A DNA stretch of 41,562 nt from Gammaproteobacteria bacterium (GTDB lineage Bacteria > Pseudomonadota > Gammaproteobacteria > Xanthomonadales > SZUA-36), in contig JAJRRA010000079.1 in assembly GCA_024279945.1 (NCBI GenBank), forward strand, positions 1 to 41,562, written 5' to 3'. Positions 17,553 through 35,416 of this stretch are shown piece after piece. The translations under genes were made by a program, and so were the position numbers. Below the pieces are notes generated by a model. The model did no database searches. It worked only from the letters and a program-made list of their open reading frames with translations, and had not been told where the DNA came from. Each line of letters starts with the position of its first letter. Within the stretch, counting starts at the first letter, position 1.

Positions 17553-18614
17553 TTATCCGTTCTGCGCACGATGGCGTAAAACATGATCAATCAATACCAG
17601 GGCCAGCATGGCTTCGACAATGGGCGTCGCCCGGATTCCGACACAGGGGTCATGACGGCCGGTGGTAATAACCTGCACTTCATTGCCATCGGTATCCAGT
17701 CCCCTGCAGGGAATTCTGAGGCTGGATGTGGGTTTGAAAGCCGTACTGACAAACACATCCTGACCACTCGATATGCCACCGAGGATACCCCCTGCGTGGT
17801 TACTTAGAAAGCCCTCTTTTGTCATTTCATCGCGATGCTGCGTTCCGTTCTGTTCAACGCTGTTGAAACCCGCCCCGATTTCAACCCCTTTCGCCGCATT
17901 GATGCCCATCATGGCGCTGGCCAGGTCCGCATCAAGCTTGCCGTAAATCGGCGCACCCAGGCCCGCCGGCACGTTTCGCGCCACCACGTTCACCCGTGCG
18001 CCTACGGAATCTCCCGACTTGCGCAACGCATCCATAAACGACTCGAGTTGCGGCACTTTAGCCGGATCAGGACAGAAAAACGGGTTGTCGTCTATGCTCT
18101 CCCAATGAATGGTCTCATCGGTGCGGATGGGCCCCAGTTGGGCCAGCCAGCCCTGGATCTCGATGCCGTGATTCACATTGAGCCACTTGCGAGCGATCGC
18201 GCCGGCCGCCACCCGCATGGCAGTCTCCCGCGCAGACGCACGCCCTCCGCCGCGATAATCCCTTAAACCATATTTTTTCCAATAGGTGAAATCAGCATGG
18301 CCCGGCCGAAACTGATCCTTGATTTTACCGTAGTCTTTCGATTTCGCATCGGTGTTTTCAATCACCAGGGCAATCGGTGTACCGCTGGTCCTGCCCTCAA
18401 ACACACCGGACAGTATCTGTACATCGTCTTTCTCCCGGCGCTGGGAAGTGTGCCTGGATTTGCCGGTAGCGCGGCGGTCGAGTTGCAGCTTGATTTCTGC
18501 TGCATCGATTTCCAGCCCAGGGGGGCAACCGTCGATCACGACCCCGATCGCCGGGCCATGGCTTTCACCGAATGTGGTGCATCGGAACAGGTGGCCAAAG
18601 GTGTTATGTGACAT
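17553..18614 (-). CDS. aroC: Chorismate synthase
   Basis: 353 residues. It eliminates phosphate from EPSP to make chorismate, the branch point for tryptophan and other aromatics, using reduced FMN. Family signatures: [18 protein letters not shown] (residues ~13-30), [20 protein letters not shown] and [13 protein letters not shown]. The ATG overlaps the prmB stop by 11 bp. Upstream position in the same run as trpF, trpB and trpA is metabolically consistent. Confidence 0.97.
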
Positions 18615-19518
18615 TTTTTCTTTCCTCCAGTAAAGCCGCTATCCGGGGACCGGCTTGATCCAGTTCCTCCCGCGTCAGGATAAATACACCGGAACCGCCC
18701 TGGGTGAAATCCAGCCACAGAAACGGCACTTCCGGCAGCAAGGCACTCAGGCGTTCTTCACTTTCGCCCACTTCACACAGCAGCACGCCATTTGCCGTCA
18801 GAAAGCACGGCGCGTCCGCCAGAATGGACAACGTGGCGTTCAGGCCGTCACGCCCGGAAACCAGGCCCTCAACCGGTTCGGCCCGATACTCATCCGGCAG
18901 GGTTTCAATGGATTCTACGGGAACATAAGGCGGGTTCGCCACGATTAAGTCATAGCGGCAGGCGGAAAGTGCGTGGAATAAGTCAGATTCGATCAGTTTT
19001 ACCCGCTCACCCGCGGCATGGCGGCTGATATTGGCTGCGGCAATTTTGAGCGCCTCGCGACTGTTATCCACCGCATCGACCCGGGTCATGGGCAGATAGC
19101 GGGCAATGGCAACAGCAATGCAGCCGCTACCGGTGCACATATCCAGCACGCGCCTGAGTGAGGCCGGATCGACCCAGGGCTGGAAGCGGTCGTGTATCAG
19201 TTCGGCGATGGGAGAGCGCGGCACCAGGGCGCCAGGGCCGGATTCGAACTCGAGCCCGGCAAACCAGGCGCGGCCGGTCAGGTAGGCCAGCGGCAGTTTT
19301 TGCGTTATGCGGGCGTCCAGCAATTCCCTGACCTGCTGCTCCTCCCGGTCATCAAGCGCCCTGTCCCAGTCATCAAAGCTTCCCTCCGGGCTAACGCCGA
19401 TGGCATGCAGGACCAGCCAGGCCGCTTCATCCCGTGCATTTGTCGTTCCATGGCCGAAATGAACATCTGCCTCATCCAGCTTTCTGTTCGCCCACTCGGC
19501 CCACTGTGCAACATTCAT
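18604..19518 (-). CDS. prmB: 50S ribosomal protein L3 N5-glutamine methyltransferase
   Basis: About 304 residues. It methylates a glutamine of ribosomal protein L3 (HemK/PrmC family). The SAM-binding motif [16 protein letters not shown] and the glutamine-binding NPPY in [10 protein letters not shown] are present, and the [11 protein letters not shown] segment before them is characteristic of PrmB. The start is uncertain: ATG 19518, ATG 19527 and GTG 19539 are all in frame and none has a good ribosome-binding site. The stop overlaps the aroC start by 11 bp; this is the first gene of the long minus-strand run. Confidence 0.93.
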
Positions 19519-19555
19519 CGTCAACATCCAGGTTTTCACATGTTCAGGCTCACGG

Positions 19556-25049: not shown

Positions 25050-26042
25050 TTATCCCCACATCTGCGGATCGATTGCGGAAACAATCCCTTTGTCATAGGT
25101 CAGTCCCCTGGGGCGATCGTACTTGAGAAGCAGGGGTCCATCGATATCGACGAAGTCACAGAGTTGGGCAACGACAAAGGCAGGGGCCATCGCCAACGAA
25201 GTACCACACATGTTGCCTACCATCAGTTTGCAATTCCGCTCTTTCGCCGCCCTGGCGAGTTTCAAAGCTTCGGTGAGCCCCCCCGTCTTGTCGAGCTTGA
25301 TATTGATCATGTCATAGCGTCCTGCCGCGACATCCAATTCACCGCTGTGCAGGCAGGACTCATCTGCCGCCAGCGTGATGGGGGATTTGAATCCCTCCAG
25401 CATTTCATCTGCACCCCGAGCCAGCGGTTGCTCGATCATCTCGAGATTCAGACGGTCACATTGCGGAATTATTTTCGTTAGTAATTCAAAATTCCAGCCC
25501 TGGTTTGCATCGACAACTAAAGTGGCATCGGGCCGGGCCGCGCGAATTGCCATCAGTTTTTCGTAGGGTTGATGACCGTCCAGTTTGATTTTTAGCACCG
25601 GCGCATCGGACGCGGCAGCCGCCTTGGCTGCCATTTCTTCAGCCGTGGACTCCAGGCCGATGGTATAAACGGTGGTTACTGGTCTCGGGTCAATGCCAGT
25701 CAATTCCCAGATACTCCTGCCTGAGCTTTTGCACTCCAGATCCCACATTGCACAATCAATGGCGTTACGCGCTCCGCCAGCGGGAAGTAATTCCTGCAGG
25801 TCTTCACGGGAAATACCCTGGCGGATTTCAGCAGCCACTGCGTGCACCTGCTCAAAAATACTATCGGCAGTTTCATCCATATAGAAAACCCCCTGGGCTT
25901 CCCCCCTGCCAATGCAGTCGTTGACTGCCAGTTGCACTACAATGCCGCGGATGGTGGTCCATTCCTTATCAGAAATCCGGAAGGGTTCAGTCATTTCCCA
26001 CGCTTCGATGTGTACGCTAAGTTTCACGATGATATTCCTCAT
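25050..26042 (-). CDS. Dipeptide epimerase-like enzyme of the enolase superfamily
   Basis: 330 residues from ATG 26042. Mandelate-racemase/muconate-lactonising fold with all catalytic marks of the L-Ala-D/L-Glu epimerase group: the acid/base pair KIK (Lys151, Lys153) and Lys249 or Lys252 (NIKLDKTGG), metal ligands Asp178 (VDANQGW), Glu204 (EQPLARG) and Asp227 (AADESC), and the C-terminal DxD (Asp299, Asp301 in VDIDGPLLL) that binds the dipeptide amino group. It interconverts D and L residues in a dipeptide; the exact dipeptide depends on loop residues I cannot resolve. Cytoplasmic. It lies 25 bp after the second serine hydrolase, forming a probable operon, and ends 34 bp from the convergent PLP gene. 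Confidence 0.9.
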   Translation of the reverse strand: MRNIIVKLSVHIEAWEMTEPFRISDKEWTTIRGIVVQLAVNDCIGRGEAQGVFYMDETADSIFEQVHAVAAEIRQGISREDLQELLPAGGARNAIDCAMWDLECKSSGRSIWELTGIDPRPVTTVYTIGLESTAEEMAAKAAAASDAPVLKIKLDGHQPYEKLMAIRAARPDATLVVDANQGWNFELLTKIIPQCDRLNLEMIEQPLARGADEMLEGFKSPITLAADESCLHSGELDVAAGRYDMINIKLDKTGGLTEALKLARAAKERNCKLMVGNMCGTSLAMAPAFVVAQLCDFVDIDGPLLLKYDRPRGLTYDKGIVSAIDPQMWG

Positions 26043-26067: not shown

Positions 26068-27621
26068 TCACCGCTCTTTCGCGCTTGCTTCGGGTGGCAC
26101 AATAAATCGGACCCTGGGTGTACCTTCAGCCCAGAATTGCAGTAAAACAGACTCGACTTTACCGCTGCCATTCAGGGTGAAATTCAGCACACCCGGATCG
26201 GACGCATTACGCCATGCCAGATCATAGGCCAGATCAAATGAGTTGTTCTGGTGGTGCACGAGTTCGCCCTGATAAAGGCTGCCAAAGGCAAATCGCAGCT
26301 TATGGTCAACATAGTCAACAACAAGATCACCGTAGACCTTATCGCTGAAGGTTCCGGCAAACCTGTCGGGTGTTGTGGAAGGCCTTAAGGACGGGTCGTG
26401 TGTGTCAATGTGCAGTTGCCTGGTTTCAGTTTCTTTATCCTTTTGTTTCAGCAGCTTTTCATTGAAGTCCGCCAGGTAGTCCTTGTCATCCAGCCCCAGT
26501 TGGTGATCCAGTATCCAGGTCAACACAGCACTATCGAGCCCGTAGTTGGGTGTGCTGTTGGTCAGCACCACGACGCATAGCTCTGAGTCCGGCAGGAAGG
26601 TGAAACTCGATACCATCCCGTCAATGCCCCCGTTATGCCAGTAAGCAACCTGGTCCGCTCCATAGTTCTGCCGGAGGATGCCAGGGCCATAGGCGCCATG
26701 AACTGTTCGAACATGCCCCTCACCGGTCAGTGGCACCAGGGTATGAGGCTTGCGGACTTCGCTGATGACCTTTTCCGGGATAATCTGCTTACCGTTCAAC
26801 TTGCCGCCGTTGATCTGCACCTTGCACCACTGGGCCATATCGGATACGGAAGAATTGATCGATCCTGCCGGAGCCATTTGGTCGATATTGTAGTAAGGGA
26901 TCGCCACGGCCTGAGCATCTGCGAGACTGTGTGGAACGGCCACATTACTCATCTCTCCCAGGTCCCTGACGCTGGTATTGCTGCGGGTCATCTGCAGTGG
27001 TTTGAATAGTCGCTGGTTGATAAAGTCATCCCAGGTTTGCCCCGTTACCGCGGGAATCGTCTGGCCCGCAGCCAGGAACAGGAAGTTGTTATAAAGCAAT
27101 CCGGATCGGAAAGATTGCTCCAGAGAAAGGTTCTGAATCATGGCAAGAATTTCGCCCCGCGACTTTCCGGGGTTTACGTACCAGGCCAGGTCTGCCCGTT
27201 GCAAGCCCGAGCGATGCGACAAGGCATCGCGAACAGTCAGTTCGGTAAACAGGTATGGGTCGGAAAAACGCAAGTGGGGAAGATAACTCGTCAACGGATC
27301 GTCCAGACTGAGTGTAGCTTCCTCAGCCAGCATACCGAGCGCCGTGGCGGTAAAGTATTTCGTGTTAGATCCAATTGCAAACAAGGTATTCTCGTCCACC
27401 GGCTGGTCTTTTCCGGTCTCCAGCACACCGTATCCCCGTGCCAGTATGACCTCGTCACCGAGCACTACTGCAACCGCAAGTCCGGGTGTCCCGCTCGCTT
27501 TGCGTGCCTGTGTTACGAATGCGTCCAGACCGTCCAGTCGATTCGTCTGCGTGGCGGCATTTGCAGTAGCCACCAGGCAATAAATGAACGTAAGTTTCAG
27601 TAAGCGTACTGCCAGATTCAT
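26068..27621 (-). CDS. Secreted serine hydrolase, beta-lactamase/S12 family (second of three)
   Basis: 517 residues from ATG 27621 with GGAG six bases upstream; the in-frame TTG at 27633 lies in that site. Signal peptide 1-22 (LTFIYCLVATANA). Catalytic motifs: SNTK (Ser85, Lys88), YNN (177-179) and HNG (329-331). A C-terminal domain (~410-517) after a charged linker resembles the lipocalin-like or DUF3471-type domains often fused to such hydrolases. Periplasmic peptidase, esterase or D-aminopeptidase activity is possible. It is 60 bp after the third hydrolase (from stop codon to ORF start region) and directly precedes the epimerase, which hints that it releases the epimerase's dipeptide. Confidence 0.91.
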   Translation of the reverse strand: MNLAVRLLKLTFIYCLVATANAATQTNRLDGLDAFVTQARKASGTPGLAVAVVLGDEVILARGYGVLETGKDQPVDENTLFAIGSNTKYFTATALGMLAEEATLSLDDPLTSYLPHLRFSDPYLFTELTVRDALSHRSGLQRADLAWYVNPGKSRGEILAMIQNLSLEQSFRSGLLYNNFLFLAAGQTIPAVTGQTWDDFINQRLFKPLQMTRSNTSVRDLGEMSNVAVPHSLADAQAVAIPYYNIDQMAPAGSINSSVSDMAQWCKVQINGGKLNGKQIIPEKVISEVRKPHTLVPLTGEGHVRTVHGAYGPGILRQNYGADQVAYWHNGGIDGMVSSFTFLPDSELCVVVLTNSTPNYGLDSAVLTWILDHQLGLDDKDYLADFNEKLLKQKDKETETRQLHIDTHDPSLRPSTTPDRFAGTFSDKVYGDLVVDYVDHKLRFAFGSLYQGELVHHQNNSFDLAYDLAWRNASDPGVLNFTLNGSGKVESVLLQFWAEGTPRVRFIVPPEASAKER

Positions 27622-27693
27622 CTTTTTCTCCAAAACCGTTCTTCGGCCATTGAGCGTCGTCTCAAAACACGAGCCGCTATATTTCGGTCAGAT

Positions 27694-29622
27694 TCAAGCA
27701 AAATATTGCCAGCCGAGGATATTCCAGTAGTAGTAAAACCAGCACATGAACAAGCCGGCGAGCGTGACCAGGGTGTAACGAAGTCTGGCCCACAGGCCAC
27801 CGAGTAATGCATTTTTCCACACGCCGGCGCAGCGATACATCAGCAACAGGCCTGAGATGCCTGCAACAATCGGCAATACCAGCCACAACTTCAACAACAA
27901 GGGTATTTCCATACCCAGGCGATCCCCCACCAGGGCGAGCACGACCAGAGCGGTGATGATCACCAGCCAGTTGGCGGCGGCAGTATAAAAAGATGCTTGG
28001 AGCGCCGATTGGTCAGCGCCCTGCATGGATGAGAACATGGATCGTTGAAAAAACCGGCGCAGCAGCACAACGAGAAAAATCAACATCGATAAACCCAGCA
28101 GACTCCAATTGAAACCGGGACTCGCAAAAACCGGAAGTTTGCGCAAGGACATGAAAGGCAGGCCGTCCATTACAAAACCCGTAATTTGACCCTGATCGTT
28201 CTCCTGGAATGCCACCAGCCTCACCTTGAACCGGGAATTAAGAGAAACACCGGAATCAAGCTCACGAAAAAGGTTCTTTTCAATTTCCACATATTGTTTG
28301 ACCCCCTCGCCCCAACTGATCGCCAGGGTATTGTCCCTTGTGACCGCCACGGTAATTCCCCCCAACAGTCCCTGAACCTTTTCCAGGCTTGAAAAGTTGG
28401 ATCGCCAGAAATTATAGGAACCGGCATATTTACCCGCCTGTTCTGAAAAGTCAGGTGGTATAGGATCATTTTTTGTTTCATCAGGATAAAACGTATCGTA
28501 AAAGGCGCCGGTGAAAGCGGAACGAGCAACCGACCCACCTTCACCTGCAAAAGATACGAAAAATGCCAGATTATGTACCTGATCGATCACCAATTCAGAT
28601 TTAAAATACTCGGTTGACCCACCATGCCCGACCAGACGCAGACCATTGGCCTGCGTTTCGTAAAATCCCAGGGCCATGCCCATCAGGCGGTCATCCTGGG
28701 AAAAATTCCGGGTCAGCATTTGCCTGACGGTTTCCTCTCTTAAAATTCGCTCACCGTGATACTCACCCCCGTTTAAGATCGCCCGGGCAAATTTGAGCAT
28801 GTCGGTCGAAGTGGCCGACAGAGCGCCTGCCGGTGCAAAATTGGAAATAATTTCAAACGGTTTTTCAACATAAGCCCCCTCTTCAAAAGCATAAGACAGC
28901 ACCATATTTTCTTGCAGGTATTCCGGCAATGGCTCCACGAACGTAGCATTTTTCATCCCCAGTACATCAAATATATTCTTTTGTACATAATCGACAAAAC
29001 TCATACCGGAAAGATTGCTGACAATCAGGCCGGCAACAGCCGCAGCATAATTCGAATAGGCTGTCTGTAATCCGGGTGGATTGACCCGTTCCGGCTGATA
29101 TCTCTGCATGGATTCAGCCAGTGGAATGATCCTTGAAGGATCATCAATAATCAGGTACCCGAGGCTGCCGTCCTCAAAACCGGGCGTATGGGTCATGATA
29201 TGACGCAGGGGGATGGGCTGGCCGGGATAGCTGTCCTTTATCTGAAACGTTTTCAGATACTGGTTTATATCCACATCCAGGTTCAGTTTCCCCTGTTCAA
29301 ACAATTGCATCACCGAAACCCAGGTAAAAAGTTTGGAAATGGAACCGGGGCGAAACAGGGTTCGAGTGGGGTCAACGGGTATACGTTTTTTCACATCCTG
29401 AAAACCATACCCCTTGGCAAATAACAGTTCTCCGTCTTTAACGATGGCCACGACTCCTGCCGGACTGCGATGGTTACTCATCAGTGGCGTGACCAGACCA
29501 TCCACAAAAGCCTCAGCAAGCCTGGGGTTATCAAGGTCCGAAATCTCCAGCGCCTGCACCGACATCATCAGGCTTTGGGAGATAAGGAAAGCCACCAGGA
29601 CGGCCGCTATGCGAGTATTCAT
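27694..29622 (-). CDS. Serine hydrolase with C-terminal membrane domain (third of three)
   Basis: 642 residues from ATG 29622, preceded by AGGAAA; the frame open to 29772 is an artefact inside DUF819. Signal peptide 1-24 (VLVAFLISQSLMMSVQA). Beta-lactamase-type motifs SISK (Ser94, Lys97), YSN (189-191) and HGG (333-335) are complete. After a beta-rich segment (~395-500) come four hydrophobic helices at about 505-523, 548-566, 574-595 and 616-634. This anchors the catalytic domain on the periplasmic face of the inner membrane. It lies 53 bp after the DUF819 transporter-like gene, so processing and uptake may be physically linked. Substrate unknown. Confidence 0.9.
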   Translation of the reverse strand: MNTRIAAVLVAFLISQSLMMSVQALEISDLDNPRLAEAFVDGLVTPLMSNHRSPAGVVAIVKDGELLFAKGYGFQDVKKRIPVDPTRTLFRPGSISKLFTWVSVMQLFEQGKLNLDVDINQYLKTFQIKDSYPGQPIPLRHIMTHTPGFEDGSLGYLIIDDPSRIIPLAESMQRYQPERVNPPGLQTAYSNYAAAVAGLIVSNLSGMSFVDYVQKNIFDVLGMKNATFVEPLPEYLQENMVLSYAFEEGAYVEKPFEIISNFAPAGALSATSTDMLKFARAILNGGEYHGERILREETVRQMLTRNFSQDDRLMGMALGFYETQANGLRLVGHGGSTEYFKSELVIDQVHNLAFFVSFAGEGGSVARSAFTGAFYDTFYPDETKNDPIPPDFSEQAGKYAGSYNFWRSNFSSLEKVQGLLGGITVAVTRDNTLAISWGEGVKQYVEIEKNLFRELDSGVSLNSRFKVRLVAFQENDQGQITGFVMDGLPFMSLRKLPVFASPGFNWSLLGLSMLIFLVVLLRRFFQRSMFSSMQGADQSALQASFYTAAANWLVIITALVVLALVGDRLGMEIPLLLKLWLVLPIVAGISGLLLMYRCAGVWKNALLGGLWARLRYTLVTLAGLFMCWFYYYWNILGWQYFA

Positions 29623-29675: not shown

Positions 29676-30821
29676 CTAGCCCAGCAATCCTGCCAGCCCC
29701 ACGCCGATAAAATTGGCAATCGCATAACCCAGAATCCCCACCATGAGTCCGGGCGTCACTAAGGTCCGCCACCCTCTTGATGCCGAGATGGCGGCCGGTG
29801 CCACCGGTCCGCCAATACAGGCCAGCGAAGCGATTACAAGCTCGGCGAGATCCATCTTAAACAGCTTTGCGCCCAGGATAATCACAATCAAGTGCGTGAT
29901 GATGATGAAAGCAGCATAAATAAAGATCATCACACCGGCATTAATCATCACCGTGATATCCGCACCGGCACCGATGGTCGCAAAAAAGATATACATCATC
30001 AACATGCCGGTCTCGAATGCGCCATGGAGATTTTCGAGCTGCTTGTGGAACATATTGGCCACCAACAGAGTGATGGCTGTAATGAACAGAATGCCGTAGT
30101 TGGGTACGTGCAAAAATCCGGCGATACCGTAGCCGGTGGCCGCGATCAGCAGACCGATGGTCAATGCAAGACAGATGTGCGCCGAGTTATATGGAACCGT
30201 CTTGTCTTCAACCTCAATTCCATCATGCTGATTGTCAGCGGAATTCTCGACGATGGGAGAGGGTATCCACCTTCTCAGAACAGCCACTGATGGAATCAAC
30301 ACGACCACCAGAATATGCAGCGTGCCAACGACATTGTCAGCCGCAAGCGCTGCGGCCAACAGTGTCTTTTCCGTGAACTGCAGGGCCTCGGCTACCGCCA
30401 CGAAATTCATTGAACCCCCAATATAGGTTGCGCTCAGAATACCGGCAAGATCCGGCCCGGCACTGCCCATCGGCAAGACCCACAAACCCATAACCGCACC
30501 CATCAGGGTGCCGGCAACGCCGAGAAAAAATGCCCCCAGCATTGGGCCGGTTTCCGGGATGATGCGCCTCAGGTTTGCCTTGAGCAGCAACAACGGTACG
30601 GCAACCGGCACCAGGAAACTCCAAACCACCTCATAGGCAGGTGCGGCATGCGGGATCACACCAAAGTTGCCCAGCACCATTGCAATAACCAGCATGATAC
30701 CGACCCCTGAAACCTGTTTTCCCAGATGCGTGGAATCAGCCCAGAAACCAAAACCCGCCACACCGATAAGTACGGCCCACAGTGCAAAACCCCAGTCCGG
30801 TGAAATGAGCGGAAAGGTCAG
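29676..30821 (-). CDS. DUF819 family multi-pass membrane protein, probable CTG start
   Basis: 381 residues if read from CTG 30821. DUF819 (PF05684) proteins have about ten membrane helices and are thought to be transporters, though none is characterised to my knowledge. Visible helices include GVGIMLVIAMVLGNFGVI, LLAAALAADNVVGTLHILVV and MLMMYIFFATIGAGADITVM. The conserved ATYIGGSMNFVAVAEAL and ACIGGPVAPAAI are present. The only usual start codon, GTG 30761, would begin in the middle of helix 1 (WGFALWAVLIGVAGFGFW). The frame extends upstream with no ATG, GTG or TTG, but a CTG overlaps the receptor stop codon as CTGA and has GAGGAAG five bases before it. From there the N-terminus matches the family. 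Co-translated with the TonB receptor. Confidence 0.85.
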   Translation of the reverse strand: MTFPLISPDWGFALWAVLIGVAGFGFWADSTHLGKQVSGVGIMLVIAMVLGNFGVIPHAAPAYEVVWSFLVPVAVPLLLLKANLRRIIPETGPMLGAFFLGVAGTLMGAVMGLWVLPMGSAGPDLAGILSATYIGGSMNFVAVAEALQFTEKTLLAAALAADNVVGTLHILVVVLIPSVAVLRRWIPSPIVENSADNQHDGIEVEDKTVPYNSAHICLALTIGLLIAATGYGIAGFLHVPNYGILFITAITLLVANMFHKQLENLHGAFETGMLMMYIFFATIGAGADITVMINAGVMIFIYAAFIIITHLIVIILGAKLFKMDLAELVIASLACIGGPVAPAAISASRGWRTLVTPGLMVGILGYAIANFIGVGLAGLLG

Positions 30822-33148
30822 AAGGTCTTCCTCAAATTCAGACCGATGGTGCGCGGGCGGTTTCGCAACGCTCTTTGTGGACCCAGAGAAGCCTGATCGA
30901 TAAACAGATCGGCTCGGGTGTCTGTGAGATTTTTCACATACACAGACACGTTCCAGCTTTCTTTAACCAGGCCCAACCTGAGATTCATAATGGTATAGGC
31001 ATCCATTCTCACGCGGAGCTGACTAAACGGTCCTTGCTCATAGGTGTTGTAGGTGCCTGAGGTGTAAACCGTATCCAATCGCGCATAGCCGGCAAACGTA
31101 CCGATCAGTTCAGGGATTCGGTAGTTCAGAGTCAGGCTATAGGTCTGTTTCGGGATACCGGGAAGGTCTTCCCCTTTCGGCGCCAGGGTCAGGTTCTGTG
31201 GATAAGGCACCCCAATCTCCTCCAGCACCGGGTCGACTTCTTCAGCACTCAGCTCCGCAGAAGTAAGCGCTGCAGTGGCGAAAATATCGAAATTCTCGAT
31301 CGGGTTATATTGCAATTCAAGCTCCAGGCCGTAGATATCGGCGGCCGGGCCGTTGGTCGTATAATTAATCCCGCTTGGACGGGCAACATTAACCCGAATA
31401 TCGGTCCAGTCCATGTAGTAAACCGCTCCATTCAGGAGCAGAGTGTTATCCAGCCACTGGCTGTGCAGTCCCAGTTCCCAATTGGTCACTTCATCAGAGT
31501 TATAAGCCTCGGGAATATTGGGTATACCGAAGCTGGCTCCTATAGCTGAAGCGAGATTGAAGCCGCCCCGCCGGAAACCTTCGGAGCGGATAAAAAACAC
31601 CCCCACATCTTCGGTAAACTCATAGGCAACACGGAACTTGGTGTAGTAGTCACTGTGGTCTACCGCCACAAGATCGAGTGGATCGCCCACACCGGGTGGA
31701 AACCCGAACAATGTACTGACAACAAAGGTCTGGTTGCGCTGCTCTACATCCAGATAGCGAATACCGCCTGTCACATAAAGTTTATCAGTGAAGTGATAGC
31801 TCAATTCACCAAATACGGCTGTTTCTCGCTCTGTGCCAAGGATGGCCCGCTGATCAAGCAGCATGTCCGGGTCGTCAAATCCGGAGAGATCTCCAACACG
31901 GATACCGATCGCCGGATTATCCGGGTCCACTTCTGTTACGAAAACAGAGGTATCGGCAAAAGTAAACTCTGAATCCTGGTAGAAGGCGCCCACAACCCAA
32001 TCCCAGGCACTGTCCATCGACGATACCAGGCGAAGCTCTGCTACATCATTTTCTTTTGTAATATCGTCCAGTTGATACACGGTAGCGAACCCTCCGCTGG
32101 GAGGATCGGGAAGACCAAATGCACCGTTTATGAAACTCGTAATATCCTCACGCCCGGTGTTCTCTTCTTTGGTTTTGGTCAATGACAGGACCAGGTTGGA
32201 CCACCCCAGATCCCAGTCAAGCAACAGGTTGCCGACACCGACATCCGTATTGGATTTTGCCTCAAAATAGCCGGCAGTCTGGTAAGGCCCCAGATTCAAA
32301 TCCTCGAAATCACTGTTACCAAAAGCCTCGACTTCTTCGCGCAAATAGGTGGCCGTGATAGCCAGTGTATCTGTCACATCCCAGCGTAAGGCGAACCGGC
32401 CACCGGTCACTTTTTCTGCGTTGATATCATTAATACCCAAACGTATATCATCGATAAAGCCATCATAGTCCTGCTGATAGAGTACAGCCCGCACAGCCAG
32501 TTTATCCTCGACCAGCGGCATATTAATCGCTGCGTTTAATTCATAATTATCACTGCCCGAGCCTGATGTTGATGAGTAGTCGAGATCAACAATTCCATAG
32601 AATTCCCGACTGTTGGGCTTATTGGTCACCATCCGGATGACCCCACCCATTGCACCGGCGCCATACCAACTTCCTTGCGGCCCTTTCAGTACCTCTACAC
32701 GGGCCATGTCAAACAATCGAAAATTGTGCTCGATGGGTACTTCATCCAGATAACGCGATGTGGTGCCCGTTGATCCGTTGCGGTTACCCAACTGACTTCT
32801 CAAGCCACGGATCGTATAGTCCTCGCCGGTTTTAACAAGGCCCGGCACAAAAGCGACGATTTCATCCAGATCAACGGCGCCAATGGCTCGCAAGTCGGAT
32901 TCGGTGATGGCCTGAATACTAATCGCCGTTTTCTGAAGGTTGAGTTCACGACGCGTGGCGGTAACAATGACCTCTTCCAACACCATACCGTCTTCCACTT
33001 CATCCTCTGCCTGTGCAACAGCAAGTGTTGATATCGAAAGGCCGGCACTGACAGCAAAGGCCGGGACCAGCAGTGACAACATGATTCTCCTGGCCGGACC
33101 GGCACGACCGGAGCAGTGCAATTCTGACTGAGATTCGAGTATTTTCAT
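30818..33148 (-). CDS. TonB-dependent outer-membrane receptor
   Basis: 776 residues from ATG 33148 (AGAGGAAAT upstream). A signal sequence is seen near 20-47 (RRIMLSLLVPAFAVSAGLSISTLAVAQA has a long n-region). The TonB box is LEEVIVTATRRE (~58-68), followed by a plug (AISIQAITESDLRAIG, IRGLRSQLGNRNG, EVLKGPQGSWYGAGAMGG) and a 22-strand barrel ending in TIGLNLRKTF with the C-terminal Phe needed for BAM recognition. It takes up a scarce ligand with energy from TonB-ExbBD. There is no siderophore gene nearby; peptidase and hydrolase neighbours suggest a peptide-like substrate. It is followed by DUF819 with a 4-bp overlap, an unusual direct coupling of outer and inner membrane transport candidates. 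Confidence 0.93.
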   Translation of the reverse strand: MKILESQSELHCSGRAGPARRIMLSLLVPAFAVSAGLSISTLAVAQAEDEVEDGMVLEEVIVTATRRELNLQKTAISIQAITESDLRAIGAVDLDEIVAFVPGLVKTGEDYTIRGLRSQLGNRNGSTGTTSRYLDEVPIEHNFRLFDMARVEVLKGPQGSWYGAGAMGGVIRMVTNKPNSREFYGIVDLDYSSTSGSGSDNYELNAAINMPLVEDKLAVRAVLYQQDYDGFIDDIRLGINDINAEKVTGGRFALRWDVTDTLAITATYLREEVEAFGNSDFEDLNLGPYQTAGYFEAKSNTDVGVGNLLLDWDLGWSNLVLSLTKTKEENTGREDITSFINGAFGLPDPPSGGFATVYQLDDITKENDVAELRLVSSMDSAWDWVVGAFYQDSEFTFADTSVFVTEVDPDNPAIGIRVGDLSGFDDPDMLLDQRAILGTERETAVFGELSYHFTDKLYVTGGIRYLDVEQRNQTFVVSTLFGFPPGVGDPLDLVAVDHSDYYTKFRVAYEFTEDVGVFFIRSEGFRRGGFNLASAIGASFGIPNIPEAYNSDEVTNWELGLHSQWLDNTLLLNGAVYYMDWTDIRVNVARPSGINYTTNGPAADIYGLELELQYNPIENFDIFATAALTSAELSAEEVDPVLEEIGVPYPQNLTLAPKGEDLPGIPKQTYSLTLNYRIPELIGTFAGYARLDTVYTSGTYNTYEQGPFSQLRVRMDAYTIMNLRLGLVKESWNVSVYVKNLTDTRADLFIDQASLGPQRALRNRPRTIGLNLRKTF
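30819..30833 (-). promoter_or_regulatory. Ribosome-binding site and CTG start for the DUF819 gene
   Basis: On the minus strand GAGGAAG (30833-30827), five bases, then CTG (30821-30819), whose last two bases open the TGA stop of the upstream receptor gene (CTGA, 30821-30818). This mirrors the common ATGA/GTGA coupled junction with a C in the first position. It decides the start of the DUF819 protein. Confidence 0.6.
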
Positions 33149-33416: not shown

Positions 33417-35261
33417 CTACCAGCCGCACTGCCTTTGAGCATTCTGTTCGTCCAGCCAGGTTTTGAGGGGAGCAAAATAATCCAGGATGGCGGTGGCATC
33501 CATTTGCTTTGACCCGGTCAGCGCTTCGAGCGCTTCGGGCCAGGGTTTGCTGCGGCCCATTTCCAGCATGGCGTTGAGGCGTTCTCCCGCCTGGCGGTTG
33601 CCGTAGATTGAGCAGCGATTGACCGGGCCCTTGTCTGCGGCTATTTCACACAGTGCGCGATGGAACTGGAACTGCAGGATATGGGCGAGGAAATAGCGGG
33701 TATACGGTGTGTTCCCCGGCACGTGGTACTTGGCGCCCGGATCAAAGGCGTCTGCGGGACGTTCGGATGGGGCGGCTACGCCCTGGTATTTCTCGCGTAA
33801 CTGCCACCACAAATCGTTGTAGCCATCGGGTCCGACTTCGCCGTCAAATACCTTCCATCGCCATTGATCCACCATCAACCCGAAGGGCAGGAAAGCAATT
33901 TTTTCAAGTGCCTGTTTCATCAACAGGCCGAGGTCACCTGAGGTGTCCGGTACTGCATCAAGCAAGCTGATCTGAACCAGGTATGTCGGCGTGATGGAGA
34001 GCGACAGTGTGTCACCTACCGCCTCGTGAAAACCGTCGTTGGCGCTGCCCCGGTACAAATAGCTCAGATTTTTGTACGCACGCTGATAATAGTTGTGCCC
34101 CAGTTCATGGTGAATGGTCTTGAAGTCCTCGGCATTCACATCAATGCACATCTTGATGCGCAGGTCGTCTTTCTCATCAATATCCCAGGCGGAAGCATGG
34201 CAAACCACGTCGCGGTCAGCCGGCTTGACGAACAGGGAGCGCTGCCAGAATGTCTCCGGCAGTTCAGCAAATCCCAGCGAGCTGAAAAAGGCCTCACCGG
34301 TTTTCACCATGCGGATAGGATCGAATTTATTGGCCTGCAAAATCGCGCTCAGGTCGTAGCCGGCGGAAGTCTCTTCCGGAGCCACAATGGGATAGATATT
34401 TTCCCAGCTCTGGGCCCACATATTACCCAGCAAGTGTGCTGGAATGGGGCCGTCCAGCGGCACCAGATCACTGCCGTACTGTGCTGCCAGTCGAGCCCTG
34501 ACATGGCAATGGAGTGCATCGTAAAGCGGCTTGACCTGACCCCAGAGCCGGTCAAGTTCTGCTGGAAAATCGGTCGGATCCATGTCGTATCCGGAGCGCC
34601 ACATGGTACCCAGATCGGCAAAACCCAGTTCGACCGCACCCTCGTTGGCCAATTCCACCTGGCGCGCATACAGCGCTTTCATGGGCGGTGAGATCGTGCG
34701 CCAGCCCAGCCAGGCCTCCAGTAGTTCGTCTGGGTTCCTGGAATCTGCCATGATGTCTTCCAGTTCGCCCAGCGCCAGACATTCTCCGTCCTCGCGACAG
34801 TATCTGCCCTTGCCGTACAGCCCGTTCATCTTTGCGCCGATTTCCGCCTGCTCGGCGGTCTTGGCCGGATCGGCGGGAGCCGGCATGACAATGCCGCTGC
34901 GAAGCATGTTCAACTTTCTCGCGGTGTCATAATCCAGACCTTCAAGATGGGTGAAACGGGCTGCCTGGGCGGCAATTTCAACCTGTGCTGCAGTGAATTG
35001 TTCGCCGGCCCGGGCGGCAAGTCGTTCGGTATCTTCGGTGATAAAATTGGCCAACACCCAATTTGTGCGTTCACTGTACTGCCCAAGTTCTGCCAGGCGC
35101 TGTTCGGCCCCGGCAACAAAACTTACTGCCTCTGCAACACCTGCGGCAGCCGCCTGCGATTCATCAGCCGCCGGGTTGGAAGCTGTCGTTGCGACAGGCT
35201 CACAGGCTGCAAGCAGCAGAAATAGTGTAGCCAACAACATCCGTTTGCTGAGTTTATCCAT
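33417..35261 (-). CDS. M2-family (ACE-like) peptidyl-dipeptidase, lipoprotein
   Basis: 614 residues from ATG 35261, chosen because AGAGGG lies six bases before it; the frame further upstream translates REP repeats (GSYIFAQ copies) and is rejected. A lipoprotein signal (LFLLLAAC, Cys20) places it in the periplasm or on a membrane leaflet. The zinc motif HELGH is at 385-389 and the third ligand Glu413 (HEAVGD) is 24 residues after His389, as in angiotensin-converting enzyme (PF01401). The enzyme removes dipeptides from peptide C-termini, a ready source of dipeptides for the epimerase. It lies 268 bp upstream of the receptor on the same strand; the gap shows no clear terminator or promoter. Confidence 0.94.
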   Translation of the reverse strand: MDKLSKRMLLATLFLLLAACEPVATTASNPAADESQAAAAGVAEAVSFVAGAEQRLAELGQYSERTNWVLANFITEDTERLAARAGEQFTAAQVEIAAQAARFTHLEGLDYDTARKLNMLRSGIVMPAPADPAKTAEQAEIGAKMNGLYGKGRYCREDGECLALGELEDIMADSRNPDELLEAWLGWRTISPPMKALYARQVELANEGAVELGFADLGTMWRSGYDMDPTDFPAELDRLWGQVKPLYDALHCHVRARLAAQYGSDLVPLDGPIPAHLLGNMWAQSWENIYPIVAPEETSAGYDLSAILQANKFDPIRMVKTGEAFFSSLGFAELPETFWQRSLFVKPADRDVVCHASAWDIDEKDDLRIKMCIDVNAEDFKTIHHELGHNYYQRAYKNLSYLYRGSANDGFHEAVGDTLSLSITPTYLVQISLLDAVPDTSGDLGLLMKQALEKIAFLPFGLMVDQWRWKVFDGEVGPDGYNDLWWQLREKYQGVAAPSERPADAFDPGAKYHVPGNTPYTRYFLAHILQFQFHRALCEIAADKGPVNRCSIYGNRQAGERLNAMLEMGRSKPWPEALEALTGSKQMDATAILDYFAPLKTWLDEQNAQRQCGW

Positions 35262-35300
35262 AAGCATCCCTCTGGTGTCAGAACCCACTTGCGCAAAAAT

Positions 35301-35416
35301 GTAAGAGCCCCACTGGGTAAAAATGTAAGAGCCCGCTTGCGCAAAAATGTAAGAGCCCGCTTGCGGGCGATATAATATCATTGAAGCAGAGATCGCCCGC
35401 AAGCGGGCTCTTACAT
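35301..35416. repeat. REP cluster: three 24-bp direct units plus one inverted copy (BIME-like)
   Basis: GTAAGAGCCC starts at 35301, 35325 and 35349, a strict 24-bp period with AAAAAT at each unit end. The third unit continues into GCTTGCGGGCGAT, and 35347-35371 is a perfect 25-bp inverted repeat of 35392-35416, with a 20-bp spacer. It fills most of the gap between divergent genes at 35261 and 35430, so their promoters must lie in or between the repeats. A TATAAT occurs at 35371-35376 but with no matching -35 box. Confidence 0.85.

Follow-up and report, generated by a model that had tools for sequence, protein, structure and literature searches.

A candidate CTG start codon of a DUF819 transporter gene, overlapping the stop codon of a TonB-dependent receptor gene by four bases

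Where does translation of a transporter gene begin when its reading frame offers no usual start codon at the place where its relatives have one nearby? The gene in question encodes a member of the DUF819 family (PF05684) and lies on the minus strand of a 41,562-nucleotide stretch of DNA from a gammaproteobacterium of the Xanthomonadales (assembly GCA_024279945.1, contig JAJRRA010000079.1). This stretch, which we call the window, is one of the 91 contigs (C81) of a draft genome (G000) with a size of 3.92 Mb. Immediately upstream on the same strand is the gene of a TonB-dependent receptor. Sequence comparison makes it very probable that translation of the transporter starts at a CTG at position 30821; we propose that it would be coupled to translation of the receptor, and that the receptor's terminal phenylalanine would hold the first base of the start codon in place.

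The transporter frame ends with a TAG at 29676 and is open upstream as far as 30962. A first-pass annotation, made from the sequence alone, had stated that no ATG, GTG or TTG would include the first membrane helix, and our reading of the frame bears this out: between the upstream stop and the GTG at 30759..30761 none of the three occurs, and this GTG, the first usual start codon of the frame, would drop 20 residues. It is plausible that a standard gene finder would pick it and lose them. Start-like codons upstream of residue 21 are CTG 30956, CTG 30821, ATT 30806, CTG 30782 and ATC 30767. Counted from CTG 30821 (30819..30821), the gene occupies 29676..30821, with 381 codons and a stop, and its product of 381 residues has the same length as that of a paralogue in the same genome (L041); from GTG 30761 the product would have 361 residues. 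The CTG shares bases with the receptor's TGA (30820-30818) in a four-nucleotide overlap, CTGA (30818..30821), as had been noticed before, together with a well-spaced GAGGAAG upstream of it.

Relatives of the transporter were collected at three taxonomic levels, with the own genome counted in each: 34 of 39 genomes of the family had a match, as did 17 of 398 of the order (E ≤ 1e-80) and 3 of 369 of the class (E ≤ 1e-60), and a separate search for related loci gave two. We read the starts of 28 homologues, setting aside L021-L023, L025-L028, L030-L033, L043, L049, L050 and matches without a locus; L019 was left out of the alignment (A1) for its run-on C-terminus, and L024, L029 and L034 were read for starts, outside the choice of starts and the comparison of register. 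The first-pass annotation had asked whether relatives carry an ATG or GTG at this position, and all 28 do, in support of its reading, either at the site that matches the N-terminus of the window protein or within 13 codons of it. The equivalent of GTG 30761 is the sole usual start in none of them. For 25 homologues a start was chosen, 17 times ATG and 8 times GTG, unlike the CTG of the window.

The closest agreement is seen in L014, L015 and the paralogue L041, all of 381 residues, whose first codons, ATG ACC CTG CC., line up with CTG ACC TTT CCG in the window. For L041 the register continues, ATG ACC CTG CCG CTG ATT standing against CTG ACC TTT CCG CTC ATT. The nearest relative, L035 (77%), from an uncultured gammaproteobacterial metagenome-assembled genome, has the N-terminus MFNLPLISPDW, and that of the window protein, (M)TFPLISPDW, is one residue shorter. 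The earlier statement that the encoded N-terminus fits the family is supported by the paralogue, L014, L015 and L035. Constraint at the protein level extends over 17 of the 20 codons that precede the GTG: from the PLI motif onwards, 12 of 17 residues are identical between the window and L035, and the nucleotide differences number 1, 3 and 8 at the first, second and third codon positions. The stretch looks translated, because the differences gather at the third position and non-synonymous divergence (dN 0.16) is well below synonymous divergence (dS 0.84), an estimate from these 17 codons of one sequence pair.

The protein matches PF05684 with 242.6 bits (cut-off 27, E 8.9e-72), residues 16-378 aligning with positions 1-374 of the 379 in the profile. 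An AlphaFold2 model computed from 25 aligned sequences has a mean predicted local distance difference test score (pLDDT) of 89.5 and a predicted template modelling score (pTM) of 0.88. In this model, the first helix comprises residues 11-29 (30735..30791) and spans the GTG; a start there would cut the predicted helix, because the GTG corresponds to residue 21. A start at GTG 30761, leaving the frame upstream of it open by chance and the protein with 361 residues, has in its favour that this is the first usual start in the frame and that the Pfam score from it is nearly the same (240.3 bits). It is nevertheless quite improbable in view of the upstream stretch being conserved as protein, the upstream ATG or GTG in all 28 homologues, the truncated helix of the model, and a Shine-Dalgarno pairing no better than that of random positions.

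This pairing was computed for each candidate against the tail of the 16S rRNA. CTG 30821 is preceded by GAGGAAG (30827..30833), inside the receptor codons TTG AGG AAG, with the core GAGG at 30833-30830, 8 nucleotides before the CTG and with a duplex energy of −6.2 kcal/mol. CTG 30782 reaches −5.4 kcal/mol, GTG 30761 and ATC 30767 −2.4 kcal/mol each, and ATT 30806 has no pairing. Among 3,000 random positions of the window, 6.9% reach −6.2 and 57% reach −2.4, and 5 of 15 other starts in the window surpass −6.2 (one of these controls was placed at 29620 rather than 29622). The Shine-Dalgarno site at CTG 30821 is decent, not exceptional. We also considered whether the AGG within the motif is unusual and dismissed the idea: AGG accounts for 10% of the arginine codons in 16 genes of the window. 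At this same place, AGG is found in 2 of 30 other receptor tails.

The same values bear on the other near-cognate codons in the frame. A start at CTG 30782 would profit from a fair Shine-Dalgarno match, yet would lose the conserved PLISPDW. One at ATT 30806 would give MSPDW, only one residue less than the shortest homologues have (MIQPDW); against it stand the missing Shine-Dalgarno pairing and the yield of ATT, about 0.3% of the ATG level (Hecht 2017 as cited in the accessible part of PMC10666635). Together, these two alternatives to CTG 30821 are distinctly improbable.

The receptor suggests a reason why the start codon would be a CTG. Its gene (30818..33148, minus strand; PF00593 E 4.8e-31, PF07715 E 6e-13, scanned from 33196) is taken to start at ATG 33148, which is preceded by AGAGGAAATC, whereas the list of open reading frames has the frame from GTG 33196. 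The protein ends in PRTIGLNLRKTF, with the final codons TTC TGA, and the third base of the TTC (30821..30823) is the C of the CTG. Codons for phenylalanine and tyrosine end in T or C, and so an overlap of the form XTGA behind a tail with either residue can only be CTGA or TTGA. The carboxy-terminal phenylalanine is reportedly also the subject of Struyve 1991, to judge by the title. In its accessible part, PMC13067283 describes a C-terminal motif with aromatic residues, the beta-signal, as required for efficient assembly into the outer membrane.

To see how general such tails are, we compiled 158 tails of TonB-dependent receptors from 15 genomes of the family, the own genome included. They come from 100 fetched regions, of which 99 could be used and one lacked a stop, from 28 loci among the matches listed, from 30 loci of a search of the own genome, and from the window. 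Four listed receptor places are not part of the set, three of which end short of the C-terminus and one of which was overlooked; of 14 receptor places in the own genome without a locus, seven were fetched, one is the receptor of the window and six were left out. In 58 loci we equated the receptor stop with the end of the longest open reading frame, an assignment that may fail close to the end of a contig. The terminal residue is phenylalanine in 81 tails, tyrosine in 18, tryptophan in 14 and another residue in 45, among them leucine in 3; phenylalanine and tyrosine together end 99 of the 158, and the three aromatic residues 113. A separate set of 32 other tails, from matches of the receptor itself and partly overlapping with the 158, has 15 ending in phenylalanine and 10 in tyrosine.

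Among the tails of the larger set with phenylalanine or tyrosine followed by TGA, 51 have CTGA and 8 TTGA; over all tails ended by TGA, the counts are CTGA 58, TTGA 11, GTGA 5 and ATGA 1. Both this frequency and the cause of the C, the codon of the receptor's terminal phenylalanine, had escaped the first-pass annotation. We rejected the idea that CTGA is a start signal in itself, as it occurs in 58 of the 158 tails, also where no gene follows; being common at receptor tails, CTGA alone proves nothing. Taken alone, neither the CTGA nor the Shine-Dalgarno motif carries much weight; the strong evidence is the conserved N-terminus with its register.

The codon rule does explain the base, and it counts against a misread ATG or GTG. 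An assembly or sequencing error at 30821 could hide a T (TTG) or an A or G (ATG or GTG), and the draft state of the genome speaks for this, as does the fact that we looked for a second assembly of the species and found none. However, an A or G would turn the terminal phenylalanine into a leucine, where phenylalanine, tyrosine or tryptophan end 113 of the 158 tails and leucine only 3, while a T would remain compatible. We would further expect, from general considerations and not from a computation, that an error should hit precisely this base by chance less often than real CTG starts occur, which account for 20 of nearly 85,000 annotated genes according to the accessible part of PMC11983097. 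An error is therefore a quite improbable explanation of the CTG.

In 7 of 59 tails with phenylalanine or tyrosine and TGA, the frame in the position of the overlap is open for at least 90 codons (L125, L149, L153, L198, L226, L229 and the window); in one further tail of this kind, the fetched region ended before the length of the frame could be judged. An ATG is close by in L198, L226 and L229, and a one-nucleotide overlap (TGATG), of which L198 may be an example, is compatible with any tail. L125 has a CTGA and a long open frame, yet an ATG 74 or 104 nucleotides further on looks likelier as the start; the gene behind this receptor is putatively moaC. The window is the only tail among the 158 for which strong evidence for a CTG start was found, the frames of L149 and L153 not having been examined for homology. 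As a separate observation, the receptor of L080 (G025:C42) ends in ...SRRL* (CTT TGA) with a TTGA and an overlapping frame open for 497 codons, and has an ATG directly after the TTG. The same contig (G025:C42:20296-20553) holds a short remnant of a DUF819 gene that contains an in-frame TGA.

Overlapping starts are also found in front of other DUF819 genes. The start overlaps some upstream open frame in L037, L038, L039, L016 and the distant paralogue L003. The first-pass annotation had suggested looking for ATGA or GTGA in relatives: four-nucleotide overlaps with the upstream open frame exist in 3 of the 28 homologues (ATGA in L037, GTGA in L038 and L039). In L037, the upstream gene is of the mandelate-racemase/epimerase type; in L038/L039, it is taken to encode a serine hydrolase from its resemblance to the scanned L010/L012. 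In L016 (G014:C65), a receptor ending in ...RWNFR* contains the GTG start of the DUF819 gene 16 nucleotides inside its end, in the same phase as the overlap in the window. A second four-nucleotide overlap at a receptor tail, in L184 (G030:C2), joins a receptor ending in ...NFK* to a GDSL-hydrolase gene by GTGA. L037, L038/L039 and L016 thus resemble the window in their overlapping DUF819 starts and differ from it in that the last upstream codon allows A or G, or that the start lies further inside. In these loci and in L184, the tetramer or start, as read from the sequence, fits the last upstream codon; they agree with the idea of a base set by the upstream gene and do not test it.

By the mechanism we propose, ribosomes that end the receptor at TGA 30820, or newly bound 30S subunits, would re-initiate within the CTGA, helped by the GAGG that the last codons of the receptor encode. 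The initiator tRNA would read CTG 30821 as methionine, and the product would be (M)TFPLISPDW... with a complete first membrane helix. The codon would be CTG and not ATG or GTG in that its first base doubles as the third base of the terminal phenylalanine codon (TTY), itself part of the outer-membrane assembly signal; only CTG or TTG would fit this overlap if the phenylalanine is retained. The CTG may persist because it is tolerated, because low expression is selected, with little transporter per receptor, or because the junction is young.

CTG starts are known, and the candidate described here belongs to this phenomenon; what it adds is a reason for the codon. In the accessible part of PMC11983097, the CTG start of FIB rep is described as proven by N-terminal analysis and mutation, as often misannotated at a GTG 14 codons downstream, and CTG starts as giving an expression about tenfold below that of TTG. 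The transporter gene shares with FIB rep the CTG, the Shine-Dalgarno motif and the downstream GTG, which in the window is 20 codons away; unlike the proven FIB rep start, the CTG of the window is known from sequence, and FIB rep is not described, in that part of the source, as overlapping an upstream stop. For four-nucleotide overlaps with termination-reinitiation, the accessible part of PMC10666635 gives the forms ATGA or GTGA. The window resembles them in the four bases shared by start and stop, and by analogy coupling would be expected; it differs in having CTGA. A term search for TTGA, CTGA and GTGA in the main text of PMC6728339 gave no match, and a literature search, whose coverage excluded most subscription journals, returned nothing relevant on CTGA overlaps or on a terminal phenylalanine tied to start codons.

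Several observations weigh against a start at CTG 30821 under the constraint of the receptor. The base rests on one draft assembly of 91 contigs. If L035 is aligned without a gap, the ATG of that gene falls on CTT 30824, the codon preceding the CTG; the ratio of dN to dS comes from so few codons of a single pair; and the Pfam scores barely tell the CTG from the GTG. CTGA is a by-product of phenylalanine or tyrosine followed by TGA, and a four-base Shine-Dalgarno core is in range in 6 of 58 other such tails. With 45 of the 158 tails ending in a non-aromatic residue, the constraint on the last codon is common, not absolute. It also does not force CTG over TTG, as a synonymous change from TTC to TTT would turn the one into the other, and both codons are used about equally often (TTC 178, TTT 194 in 16 genes of the window). 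Finally, the adjacency of receptor and transporter is not conserved: of the 27 other homologues whose upstream side was inspected, two (L016, L040) showed a recognisable receptor, with Pfam run on 5 of the 27 and L018 lying at a contig end. For the receptor itself, the best other match within the family has 35% identity (33% in the genome of L035), too distant for an orthologous junction to serve as comparison.

The odd start could also mean that the original one was lost and the gene is decaying, which the three other DUF819 genes in the genome might permit. This is highly improbable given 381 open codons, a low dN/dS at the N-terminus, a confidently predicted fold and open neighbouring genes on the same strand. 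We also considered a fusion of receptor and transporter by frameshifting, for which the frame open to 30962 would leave room, and rejected it, as a fusion of an outer- with an inner-membrane protein is implausible; no search for a slippery site was made.

In its near-full profile match and its model, the window protein is like other DUF819 transporters. A Foldseek search with the model had the citrate symporter CitS in all of its top 18 PDB matches (5xat_D, E 2.6e-05; 5a1s_D, E 3.1e-05, TM 0.63). The accessible part of PMC8396727 places DUF819 among the re-entrant CPA/AT transporters, with 10 helices, 2 re-entrant elements and the N-terminus outside, and names 5a1s as template. Judged on the model as a whole, a CitS-like fold of this type fits the transporter.

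The genes between 25050 and 35402 form a cluster on the same strand. Upstream of the receptor is an ACE-like M2 peptidase (33417..35402, PF01401 E 3.2e-222). Downstream of the transporter are two PF00144 serine hydrolases, at 27694..29622 (scanned from GTG 29772, with ATG 29622 the likely start as read in the sequence) and at 26068..27633, and a DgcA of the N-acetyl-D-Glu racemase / L-Ala-D/L-Glu epimerase type (25050..26042, NF042940 422.9 bits, cut-off 400). Near the DUF819 gene of L035 are a DgcN-like gene (439.3 bits, below the cut-off of 480), a DgcA-like gene (380.1, below 400), an amidohydrolase and a serine hydrolase whose top model is D-aminopeptidase (142.3 bits, far below 443). Based on the neighbourhoods in the window and around L035, we propose D-amino acids or peptidoglycan-derived peptides as cargo for this branch of DUF819, which suggests that the transporter is a permease for them. 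Elsewhere in the window (17553-19539), two genes share 11 nucleotides, one with a match to ribosomal protein L3 glutamine methyltransferase and the other with a match to chorismate synthase. The genome has a high receptor load, with 44 PF00593 matches and 4 DUF819 genes in 3.9 Mb; at G000:C16:14662-15746, a receptor appears as two adjoining matches, one with two internal TAA, representing a broken gene or a frame error.

A start at CTG 30821 would correct the N-terminus of the transporter, whose first helix the usual annotation would lose. It is doubtful whether outer-membrane genes form a hidden niche of CTG and TTG starts in general, in which genes overlapping the TGA of a tail in phenylalanine or tyrosine by four bases must use these codons; if this were true, a class of rare-codon starts would follow from the outer-membrane assembly signal and be missed by gene finders that disallow CTG. 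Outer-membrane genes with such tails are in any case a place to seek overlooked CTG and TTG starts, on a scale that looks small. For the organism studied here, the locus offers a chromosomal gene with a candidate CTG start, in which a single base would do double duty, for the outer-membrane signal of the receptor and for the start of the transporter.

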